Below are positions 28,733 through 32,862 of a stretch of DNA of 39,157 bases, piece after piece; the stretch's first letter is position 1, and each line of letters starts with the position of its first letter. The DNA is from Deltaproteobacteria bacterium (lineage in GTDB: Bacteria; Desulfobacterota; Desulfobaccia; Desulfobaccales; 0-14-0-80-60-11), in contig JACQYN010000101.1 of assembly GCA_016208235.1 (NCBI GenBank), positions 1 through 39,157 of the forward strand, written 5' to 3'. The notes under the pieces were generated by a model that saw nothing but the letters and a program-made list of their open reading frames with translations, was not told where the DNA came from and ran no database searches. The position numbers and the translations under genes were made by a program.

Positions 28733-29155
28733 ATGGCGCGGCTTAACTACGTAGAATTCTATTACAGCACCAAACACAAACCTGACGACAAATATAAATG
28801 CGACAACGCCAACGTCCTGAATCTTTTGAAGAGCTTGGAGGCCAAGGGCGTAGAAACCGCGGCCATTGACATGGGGGATATAGCTGATCCCTTCCGTCAG
28901 TACCATAAAGCCTCCAGCGGGCCTGCCTCGGAATATCGGCCCATCTTCGGCGAGGTCCGGGGATCTGACTATAAAGAATACTTCGGCAAGACCATTCCCG
29001 CCCTTTGCTGCTATGCGAAAAAAGGAGACCGGGCGCCTCTGGAGGTCTTCCCCCGCAGTGACAAGAAGTTGGGGCGAGTTTATCTCATCGAGGAGTGGCT
29101 GGAAAACTACATCGGCGAGTTGGAAGGCCGGGCCGAGTCCGAAGAAGCCCGTTAA
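28733..29155 (+). CDS. Hypothetical cytoplasmic protein
   Basis: This 140-residue protein starts at an ATG preceded by GGGAGGAGG. It has no signal peptide or membrane segment. It begins with an aromatic strand (LNYVEFYYSTKH), then a basic and acidic helix with NVLNLLKSLEAKGVETAAIDMGDIADPFRQYHKA. A GKTIPALCCYAKKGDRAPLEVFPR segment has adjacent Cys, and the C-terminus is acidic. The strand-helix-strand start (a polypeptide that reads YVEFYYS...LEAKGVETAAIDM) suggests a thioredoxin-like or Rossmann-like alpha/beta fold, but no family is recognised. Promoter, strong ribosome-binding site and terminator define a single-gene unit. Confidence 0.78.
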   Translation: MARLNYVEFYYSTKHKPDDKYKCDNANVLNLLKSLEAKGVETAAIDMGDIADPFRQYHKASSGPASEYRPIFGEVRGSDYKEYFGKTIPALCCYAKKGDRAPLEVFPRSDKKLGRVYLIEEWLENYIGELEGRAESEEAR

Positions 29156-30508: not shown

Positions 30509-31036
30509 CTATAACTCTTTCAATGTGGCCTCATAGGCCGCGAACGCGGCCTTGCCGAAGAGTACAAAGCGCACCCGTTCGATCTCCGGGTGTGCCGCCA
30601 GGTATTCCTTTACAGTCTTCAGGGCGATCCTGGCTGCATCCGCCAGGGGATAGCCGTAGGCGCCGGTGGAGATGGAGGGGAAGGCCACGGTTTTAATCCC
30701 CTTGGCGGAGGCCAGCTTCAGGCTCTCCCGGTAGCAGGAGGCCAGCAGCTCCGGCTCCCGGTGGTGCCCGTCCCGGTAAATGGGGCCCACGGTATGAATC
30801 ACGTACCGGGCCTGAAGATTGCCCCCGGTGGTGATACGGGCTTCACCCGTGGGGCACCCGCCGAGCTGGCGGCACTCCTCCAGGATCTTCGGTCCCCCGG
30901 CCCGGTGGATGGCGCCGTCCACCCCGCCTCCGCCCAGAAGGGAACTGTTGGCGGCATTGACGATAGCTTCCGTGTCCTGCCGGGTGATGTCCCCTTCCAC
31001 CAATTCCAGCGCCGACCGCCCCACCTGGATTTCCAC
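30509..31036 (-). CDS. Macro-domain protein (YmdB-like O-acetyl-ADP-ribose deacetylase)
   Basis: This 175-residue single macro domain starts at a GTG preceded by GGAGG. Its diagnostic segments are VEGDITRQDTEAIVNAANSS, LLGGGGVDGAIHRAGG (ADP-ribose-binding loop with the conserved Gly run and Asp), YVIHTVGPIY and PSISTGAYGYPL. It would bind ADP-ribose derivatives in the cytoplasm and hydrolyse O-acetyl-ADP-ribose or mono-ADP-ribosyl marks. The length is normal for stand-alone bacterial macro proteins. It lies 151 bp downstream of the UxxC selenoprotein gene on the same strand. Confidence 0.93.
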   Translation of the reverse strand: MEIQVGRSALELVEGDITRQDTEAIVNAANSSLLGGGGVDGAIHRAGGPKILEECRQLGGCPTGEARITTGGNLQARYVIHTVGPIYRDGHHREPELLASCYRESLKLASAKGIKTVAFPSISTGAYGYPLADAARIALKTVKEYLAAHPEIERVRFVLFGKAAFAAYEATLKEL

Positions 31037-31083
31037 GCCTTGACCTCCGTAGGTTTCTTGAGGGGAAGGCCAGTAGGTTAAGC

Positions 31084-31160
31084 GGCAGCTATCAGCCTAA
31101 GGATGCTACCATGACCTTGGATTTCTAAAAGCTGAAGGCTAAAAGCTGATAGCTGGCTGC
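31084..31160. repeat. AGCTGATAGCTG-type repeat with dyad symmetry
   Basis: GGCAGCTATCAGCCT near the left faces AAAGCTGATAGCTGGC near the right, with an AAGCTGAAGGCT unit between. It occupies the gap between the macro and selenoprotein genes. Confidence 0.6.
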
Positions 31161-31187
31161 TAAATGGCCCCCTTTTCCCCCATCATA

Positions 31188-31766
31188 TCACAGAGTGATC
31201 TGGAGGTAGGGTTCCGCGCGCCTGAACCACTCGCTGTCGGGATACTTGGCCTTTAATTCATCATATGCCATTCTCAAGGGCTTGGGATCGTGGTCCATCT
31301 TGTACTTGGCCACCCCCAGGAAAAAAATGGCCTCCGCCGCGGCCCGGGGATGAGGGCACCGGGTCATCATTTCTTCCAGCATGGCCCGGGCCTCGGCATA
31401 CTGTTCGGTATCCAGGGCCCAGCGGGCCTTACCCACCATGAACAGGGGCATGAACTCCTCGGGGGGGACGTACCCCACAATCCTATAATGCTCCTTGCCG
31501 TCGGCATCCAGCACCAGGATGGTGGGAGTCCAGGACACCCCATATTTTTCCATCAGGGCTTTGTTGGAAACCTCCACCTGGACCGGGATGAAGTTCAAGT
31601 CGATGAAACTGCCCATGCCTTCCGCAGAGTACGTAACCGTACCCATTTTCTGGCAGCCCAGTCATTGGGGGTTGAAGAAATCCAGGAGGATGGGCTTGTT
31701 GGTTTTTCTGGCGGTTTCCTGGGCTAAAGCCAGATCGCTTCCCCAGCAAACTTTCAACTTAGCCAT
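31188..31766 (-). CDS. Thioredoxin-fold selenoprotein (UxxC, Sec35) with C-terminal TPR-like region
   Basis: From the ATG at 31766 (GAAGGAGTC upstream) the frame runs 34 codons to a TGA at 31662-31664 and continues in frame to 31188, giving 192 residues with Sec35. Residues before and after the TGA read PILLDFFNPQ-U-LGCQKMG, the position and surroundings of a thioredoxin CxxC active site (here U35-L-G-C38). A cis-Pro segment follows (VSWTPTILVLDADG). The last ~75 residues (ARWALDTEQYAEARAMLEEM...) resemble tetratricopeptide helices. It has no signal peptide, so a cytoplasmic thiol/selenol oxidoreductase is likely. Reading the TGA as a stop would cut the active site in two and leave two useless fragments. 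Confidence 0.86.
31627..31644 (-). promoter_or_regulatory. Candidate bacterial SECIS hairpin for Sec35
   Basis: On the minus strand, 17 nt after the UGA, GGGTAC pairs with GTACTC (six pairs, one G-U) around a GGTTAC loop. The loop guanines are about 24-25 nt after the UGA, matching the hdrA candidate. The stem is shorter than that of hdrA, so it is somewhat less certain. Confidence 0.58.
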
Positions 31767-31995
31767 GGGTTGACTCCTTCCTTAACTTGTTAAATAGGCG
31801 ATCGCTCGGTTTGCCTTTAAGCTAATCATCAGCCCCGGGAAAGCAAGACCATCGCCGAAATGGTCATCTCTGGCCCCTTTCCCCCCGGGAATCAATTTTT
31901 TGACCGCGCTTTATCAATAATTTAGTGCGGCCACAGATTGCTTGCCCCGGAAGCGGTGATTATTTTATAAGCAAAAAAGAAAGGGGGGCGGCCTC

Positions 31996-32862
31996 ATGGC
32001 GGGAAAATGCCTGGTAGAGAAAATGGAAGGTCGTGATCTCGATTCTTATGACCTGATTACCGTCCTCGGGCTCTTGAAAGAACATGATTGGAAGGAGATC
32101 TGTCGGCGTTACGCTCCGGACGGCCATGGCCCTGGAAAGATCAACCTGATGCTCAGCACGGACAGCTACTACGTGGAAATGACGCTGGAAACCCTGACTT
32201 CCCTGGCCCTTTCTTCCAAATACCAGGCCAGCCCCAACCTGATGCAGGCCCTGATCCGCCGCTTGCTTTGCGGCCATCGTCACAATCTGATTCTGGAAAA
32301 ATTGCGGACCTACGGGGTGCCCATCGATGACCCGAATCAGTTGAACCTCTCCTGTTCCGTGGGCACCATGGGGGTGGACCTGGTGGTCAACCGGCCCCCC
32401 AATGTCCCGGAGTACCGTTTCCGCAAGTTCGGCACCACCCGGGTGGAGCAGGAGGAGCAGCGCCCCCTGGACCATTACGACGCGGTCTCAATCCTCTATC
32501 TGGCCCAACAGAACCAGACAGAGCGCATCTTAAACCGTTATGTGCCCCAGGAACTTCTCAATGAGGGCAGGGAAGGGGAAAAGGTGGTGCGGTTCTCCAG
32601 CCCGGCCGGAGATTACCAGGTGGACTTTTTCTTCCAGAAGATCCATAACGACGTGCCCCGGGGGGTCCCGGAGCGGGGGAACGTCTCCTCCGCCACCATG
32701 CATCAGGTGTTGCGTCGCGTCTTTGCCGGCCACGCCCCGGAACTGGCCGCCCGGGAACTGACGGATAAGGGTATCTTGATCACCCCGGAGGAAGTGAGCC
32801 GGGAGTTCAGCCTGGCTAGGATCCTAAACGACAATTACATCGAGATGGGTTTCAAGAGGTAA
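31996..32862 (+). CDS. Hypothetical protein with an internal tandem duplication
   Basis: This 288-residue protein starts at an ATG with AAGGGGGG upstream. Two halves are related. Near residue 15, LDSYDLITVLGLL, then ICRRYAP, SYYVEMTLE, LMQALIRRLLCGH and LRTYGVPI. Near residue 157, LDHYDAVSILYLA, then ILNRYVP, DYQVDFFFQ, TMHQVLRRVFAGH and LTDKGILI. The order and spacing agree between the two, so a ~130-residue unit was duplicated and diverged. No signal peptide or membrane segment is seen. No known family is recognised. Confidence 0.78.
   Translation: MAGKCLVEKMEGRDLDSYDLITVLGLLKEHDWKEICRRYAPDGHGPGKINLMLSTDSYYVEMTLETLTSLALSSKYQASPNLMQALIRRLLCGHRHNLILEKLRTYGVPIDDPNQLNLSCSVGTMGVDLVVNRPPNVPEYRFRKFGTTRVEQEEQRPLDHYDAVSILYLAQQNQTERILNRYVPQELLNEGREGEKVVRFSSPAGDYQVDFFFQKIHNDVPRGVPERGNVSSATMHQVLRRVFAGHAPELAARELTDKGILITPEEVSREFSLARILNDNYIEMGFKR

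Follow-up and report, generated by a model that had tools for sequence, protein, structure and literature searches.

The window (the whole stretch of DNA analysed, 39,157 nt) comes from an uncultured anaerobic bacterium and carries, on its minus strand, a gene whose reading frame is crossed by a UGA at codon 35 (Table 1). As judged from the comparisons described below, this gene almost certainly encodes a genuine selenoprotein. Codon 35 occupies the exact place of the first catalytic Cys in thioredoxins, and the ribosome-binding site ahead of the initiating ATG has counterparts of the AGGA/GGAG type ahead of nearly all homologs. Reading of the minus-strand frame confirmed what had been described in an earlier note on this DNA, namely, a UGA inside a thioredoxin motif and a frame of 192 codons open on both sides of it and provided with a ribosome-binding site; the coordinates given there are correct and the strand is minus. 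No model in NCBIfam 20 covers the protein, and standard annotation therefore probably splits the gene at the UGA.

Table 1. Features of the selenoprotein locus and of the window (first eight rows), and regions of three Geobacteraceae genomes that hold the gene together with selA (genome:contig, last three rows).
Feature	Position	Strand	Remarks
Selenoprotein gene	31188..31766	-	192 aa; ATG start; frame 31766-31191; stop TGA 31190-31188
Ribosome-binding site AAGGAG	31774..31779	-	7 nt upstream of the ATG
UGA codon 35 (Sec), position 1 of U-x-x-C	31662..31664	-	Context FFNPQ-U-LGC
Cys38, resolving Cys of UxxC	31653..31655	-	Invariant in 25-row alignment
bSECIS-type hairpin	31627..31644	-	18-35 nt past the UGA; stem 31644-31638 / 31633-31627, 7 bp; loop GUUA
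Thioredoxin domain	31434..31733	-	About residues 12-111; Thioredoxin_2 E 3e-15, AlphaFold2 model and invariant columns
C-terminal helical tail	31197..31463	-	Residues 102-190; two TPR-type helix hairpins and cap
Macro-domain protein	30509..31036	-	Macro E 2e-49; next gene downstream, same strand
Selenoprotein gene-selA region	G304:C1 534431-540896
Selenoprotein gene-selA region	G438:C11 772705-779070
Selenoprotein gene-selA region	G434:C1 3435705-3440979

A rival reading of the locus is that the UGA is an ordinary stop, terminating a 34-aa peptide, and that a second initiation, at the ATG at 31646, yields a 152-aa protein devoid of the catalytic residue. Such an ORF does exist; it is the only one that the standard ORF list shows for this gene and the one that a standard gene caller would predict. 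The homologs, however, argue against this. A single in-frame stop, always TGA, was found in 29 of 30 homologs (99 relatives searched). When the search was extended to 395 genomes of the phylum, matches were obtained at 91 places in 84 genomes: counted by row, 80 of the 91 contain exactly one in-frame TGA and 11 contain no stop, and in none has the UGA been exchanged for UAA or UAG. All 77 distinct Sec forms that were read through have the UGA in the identical column and a Cys three residues later. Genome G462, which is fragmentary, has a homolog with two TGA codons that is apparently frameshifted.

A check of the homologs for CxxC at the same place showed that, in those homologs that lack Sec, the replacement is mostly Cys, giving CIGC or CVGC; most non-Sec homologs thus have Cys in the very column where the ordinary-stop reading places a terminator. 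In a 25-row alignment column 35 has U throughout except for a C in the row of the non-Sec homolog, and the invariant positions (D29, U/C35, G37, C38 and W79-T80-P81) are, by their sequence, the catalytic set of a thioredoxin. Within the genus, dN ranges from 0 to 0.04 upstream of the UGA and from 0.05 to 0.08 downstream, with dS between 0.35 and 1.6. Purifying selection acts on both sides of the UGA, including the 34 upstream codons, and the ribosome-binding site lies ahead of the upstream ATG. The gene thus shows the conserved in-frame UGA, with Cys in homologs, by which bacterial selenoproteins are recognised. The earlier note had named homologs ending before the UGA, or having an unrelated residue at position 35 and no following Cys, as evidence against Sec; the homologs in fact continue past the UGA and retain that Cys, and the claim stands.

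A hairpin (GGGUACG-GUUA-CGUACUC) follows the UGA after a 17-nt spacer. In published rules, a bSECIS has a loop of 3-9 nt with a G in its first two positions, an upper stem of 4-16 bp, a UGA-to-loop distance of 16-37 nt and an energy of at most -7.5 kcal/mol (PMC13188914). The present hairpin conforms to all four, its 4-nt loop beginning with G and lying 24 nt from the UGA, on a 7-bp stem with an energy of -9.8 kcal/mol; the structure that the earlier note had described downstream of the UGA is real. Across 28 sequences, 96.4% of the cells are paired, three pairs show compensatory change, and the covariation score was reached by none of 500 shuffles. Typically, a change from Gly GGU to Asp GAU is accompanied by a change from Tyr UAC to UAU. 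Unusual stability of the hairpin goes with the presence of Sec, with a median z of -2.5 in the Sec forms (n = 77) versus -0.8 in the Cys forms (n = 14), although the corresponding p value (Mann-Whitney, 3e-6) is only indicative because the sequences share kinship. The covariation of this element is a further point against the UGA being an ordinary stop. Rfam gave no match anywhere in the window, so the hairpin has no curated family.

The baseline for z was synonymous recoding of the same peptides. Forms without a stop from family f58 (see below) were left out of both the SECIS and the tree tests. The tree comprised 77 Sec and 14 Cys forms; it had no outgroup and many of its branches are weak.

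The genome from which the window comes carries genes for the decoding of Sec. It contains selA (606 bits), a tRNA-Sec with UCA anticodon (78 bits) and the C-terminal 507 aa of selB, the gene being cut by the contig end. The Sec-decoding organism postulated in the earlier note is supported by these genes, which agree with the hairpin, the covariation and the structure. With these genes as a further argument, we consider it very improbable that the UGA is read as an ordinary stop. Its reassignment to Trp or another amino acid by a change of genetic code has a negligible probability: any code in which UGA is sense would leave the frame open, but this same gene, like many of its homologs, terminates at TGA; tRNA-Sec (UCA) and selA are there, the residue aligns with a catalytic Cys, and many families of the phylum retain the UGA at this single position.

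A second Sec gene in the window, likewise announced in the earlier note, was also seen: hdrA (about 4832-1755, minus strand, with an upstream ATG at about 4832) has an in-frame UGA in CAMU at 4640-4638. HdrA with UGA is a known type of selenoprotein. In three Geobacteraceae genomes the selenoprotein gene studied here lies some 3-5 kb from selA, on the same strand and in no apparent operon (Table 1).

In a survey of 40 chosen genomes, selA was found in 16 of 16 genomes with a Sec form, and also in all five in which the selenoprotein gene was not found. The four genomes without selA (G218, G300, G305 and G390) all have non-Sec forms. One genus includes both states, G305 having CVGC and no selA, and G376 having TGA and selA; the pair represents a natural Sec-to-Cys replacement. 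Many genomes with the Cys form retain selA, for example, in genus g256 of the Geobacteraceae, and loss of Sec in this family therefore needs no loss of the machinery.

On the tree, the label changes between Sec and Cys three times, in genus g256 (CIGC), in G042 (CVGC) and in G305 (CVGC); G042 sits on a long branch and its placement is unsure. Since Sec surrounds the changed lineages, Sec to Cys is the simplest direction. Across the phylum the family mostly has Sec; a few members have changed to Cys or lost the motif, and these changes look like losses. About one in five of the phylum's sampled genomes has a member of the family, mostly in Sec-containing form. Family f48 was recognised as Geobacteraceae with a PpcA cytochrome query; the selenoprotein profile matches 41 of its 48 genomes, two of these matches being weak and partial. 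In a divergent clade, family f58 (L146, L157, L160-L166), the site reads CGGC, CxGS or has no Cys, and the tail is kept. Catalysis may be dispensable in these proteins, which suggests that the tail or the fold has a role without it.

The product would be a thioredoxin-type domain followed by a helical tail, the first helix of which overlaps the end of the domain. Residues 4-105 find their best profile and fold matches (PDB) in DsbD-gamma and thioredoxins. As in a thioredoxin, the first active-site helix begins with the UxxC motif, Asp29 occupies the position of the buried thioredoxin Asp26, and WTP (79-81) forms the cis-Pro loop; Asp29 and WTP are invariant in the 25-row alignment. The AlphaFold2 model has a mean pLDDT of 96.5, and the tail helices (102-119, 123-136, 140-158, 162-174 and 179-189) are modelled at high pLDDT. 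The tail profile matches the TPR domain of CpoB (E 4.7e-9 over 110-182) as well as BamD, and TPR_6 was detected in 17 of 25 family members. These data uphold the TPR-like nature that the earlier note had assigned to the tail. Its further remark that such a region is not a common partner for thioredoxin selenoproteins holds in comparison with other selenoproteins of this kind; it does not hold within the family itself, of which the conserved two-TPR tail is a standard part. Neither the 192-aa sequence nor the model gives any sign of a signal peptide or a membrane segment, and the protein is therefore likely to be cytosolic. In these respects it departs from DsbD, a membrane electron transporter with a periplasmic gamma domain: the 192-aa protein shares the gamma-type fold but has neither an evident signal peptide nor a membrane domain, and it has Sec in place of the first Cys, and a TPR tail.

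A predicted selenoprotein termed "thiol:disulfide interchange protein", which reviews list, has PF13098 and UxxC (WP_011366075.1; PMC1794560, PMC13188914). The 2006 survey (Zhang and Gladyshev 2006) counted three Sec sequences, from Syntrophus aciditrophicus, Geobacter metallireducens and G. uraniireducens, and a single change from Cys to Sec. PF13098 and UxxC are both found in the protein studied here, and Sec forms occur in other Thermodesulfobacteriota besides Geobacter. Among the genomes analysed, G463 is presumably Geobacter uraniireducens (G443 being presumably Citrifermentans bemidjiense), and its Sec form belongs to the present family. We file the gene in the 2006 family because no other PF13098 match in G463 has an in-frame TGA, and because the other Sec thioredoxins read in the Geobacteraceae are TrxC-like. 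On the grounds of domain, motif, distribution and the presumed identity of G463, membership is very probable. There are differences as well. The two reviews that list the predicted family are silent on TPR, whereas here a two-TPR tail is present; and in place of the single Cys-to-Sec event of the 2006 survey, Sec prevails and the changes look like losses. New are the tail of TPR hairpins, the broad distribution and the predominance of Sec. Our literature search found no bench study of the family predicted in 2006 and no paper tying such a selenoprotein to TPR; the gene adds a well supported member, with a fixed two-TPR tail, to an apparently unstudied selenoprotein family.

Further Sec PF13098-like proteins of the Geobacteraceae (G438, G089 and G434) were read as TrxC-like and set aside. 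Sec TrxC-like thioredoxins of that family (L139-L142) have a Cys-rich N-terminus and the motif WAxWUPHC; they belong to the same phylum and have Sec at the same active-site position, but they represent another subfamily, with N-terminal Cys motifs and no TPR tail. The NCBIfam models for TsoB, the VPGUxxT thioredoxin-like protein and the Trx7/PDZ selenoproteins show weak similarity in the thioredoxin domain, all scores being far under the cut-offs (best 45.6 bits vs 805). A search of plasmids returned only distant thioredoxin matches.

Taken as a whole, the locus is quite probably best explained by a Sec-decoded cytosolic disulfide reductase that combines thioredoxin and TPR parts and is a probable member of the 2006 family. 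On the comparative data, the ribosome would decode the UGA as Sec with the help of the downstream hairpin, SelB and tRNA-Sec, yielding a cytosolic 192-aa protein made of a DsbD-gamma/thioredoxin-type domain and two TPR hairpins. Sec35 would most likely attack the disulfide of a client or another oxidised thiol, Cys38 would resolve the mixed selenenylsulfide, and Asp29 may assist proton transfer. The tail would dock the client or a partner protein. Function as a cytosolic disulfide reductase with partners docked by the tail is what the invariant catalytic residues and the fold suggest.

How the tail is used can be envisaged in two ways. The protein could resemble the chaperedoxin CnoX/YbbN, its tail binding unfolded clients and its Sec-thioredoxin domain keeping their Cys residues reduced. 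The order of domains is the same (thioredoxin, then TPR), the structural matches include E. coli YbbN and its counterpart in Salmonella, and Caulobacter CnoX combines holdase and reductase activities (PMC6282202). The tail, however, is much shorter, with two TPR hairpins in 90 residues as opposed to about 170 residues past the thioredoxin domain in YbbN structures of 280 residues; the thioredoxin domain is of another subfamily and has Sec; whole-chain superposition on YbbN is poor (TMt 0.30, rmsd 11.7); and by sequence the protein matches DsbD-gamma and CpoB best, rather than YbbN. We thus consider a chaperedoxin-like role unlikely. Less probable still, and by a wide measure, is that we are dealing with a widespread chaperedoxin-like Sec protein of anaerobes, distinct from the 2006 family, in which Sec is ancestral and thioredoxin domain and tail together bind and reduce clients.

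Alternatively, the protein could be the dedicated reductase of one enzyme or of a peroxide or sulfur substrate, the tail serving as a specific dock without any chaperone role. The catalytic set is complete, Sec in proteins of the thioredoxin fold usually increases the reaction rate, and TPR tails of small size are commonly specific for one partner. We give this possibility slightly less than an even chance. It is weakened by the gene neighbourhood, where no operon and no linked partner gene is conserved phylum-wide. The macro-domain gene adjoins the selenoprotein gene in four loci, all in the bacterium's own family, and what we take by eye from the sequence to be a cardiolipin-synthase-like neighbour appears in Geobacteraceae loci only.

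Two genes at 28733-29155 and 31996-32862 (+), for which no Pfam match was obtained, also flank the selenoprotein gene in its close relatives, where they are conserved. A short inverted repeat (cagctatcagcct ... aggctaaaagctgatagctg) at 31080-31175, between the selenoprotein and macro-domain genes, may be a dispersed repeat or a terminator.
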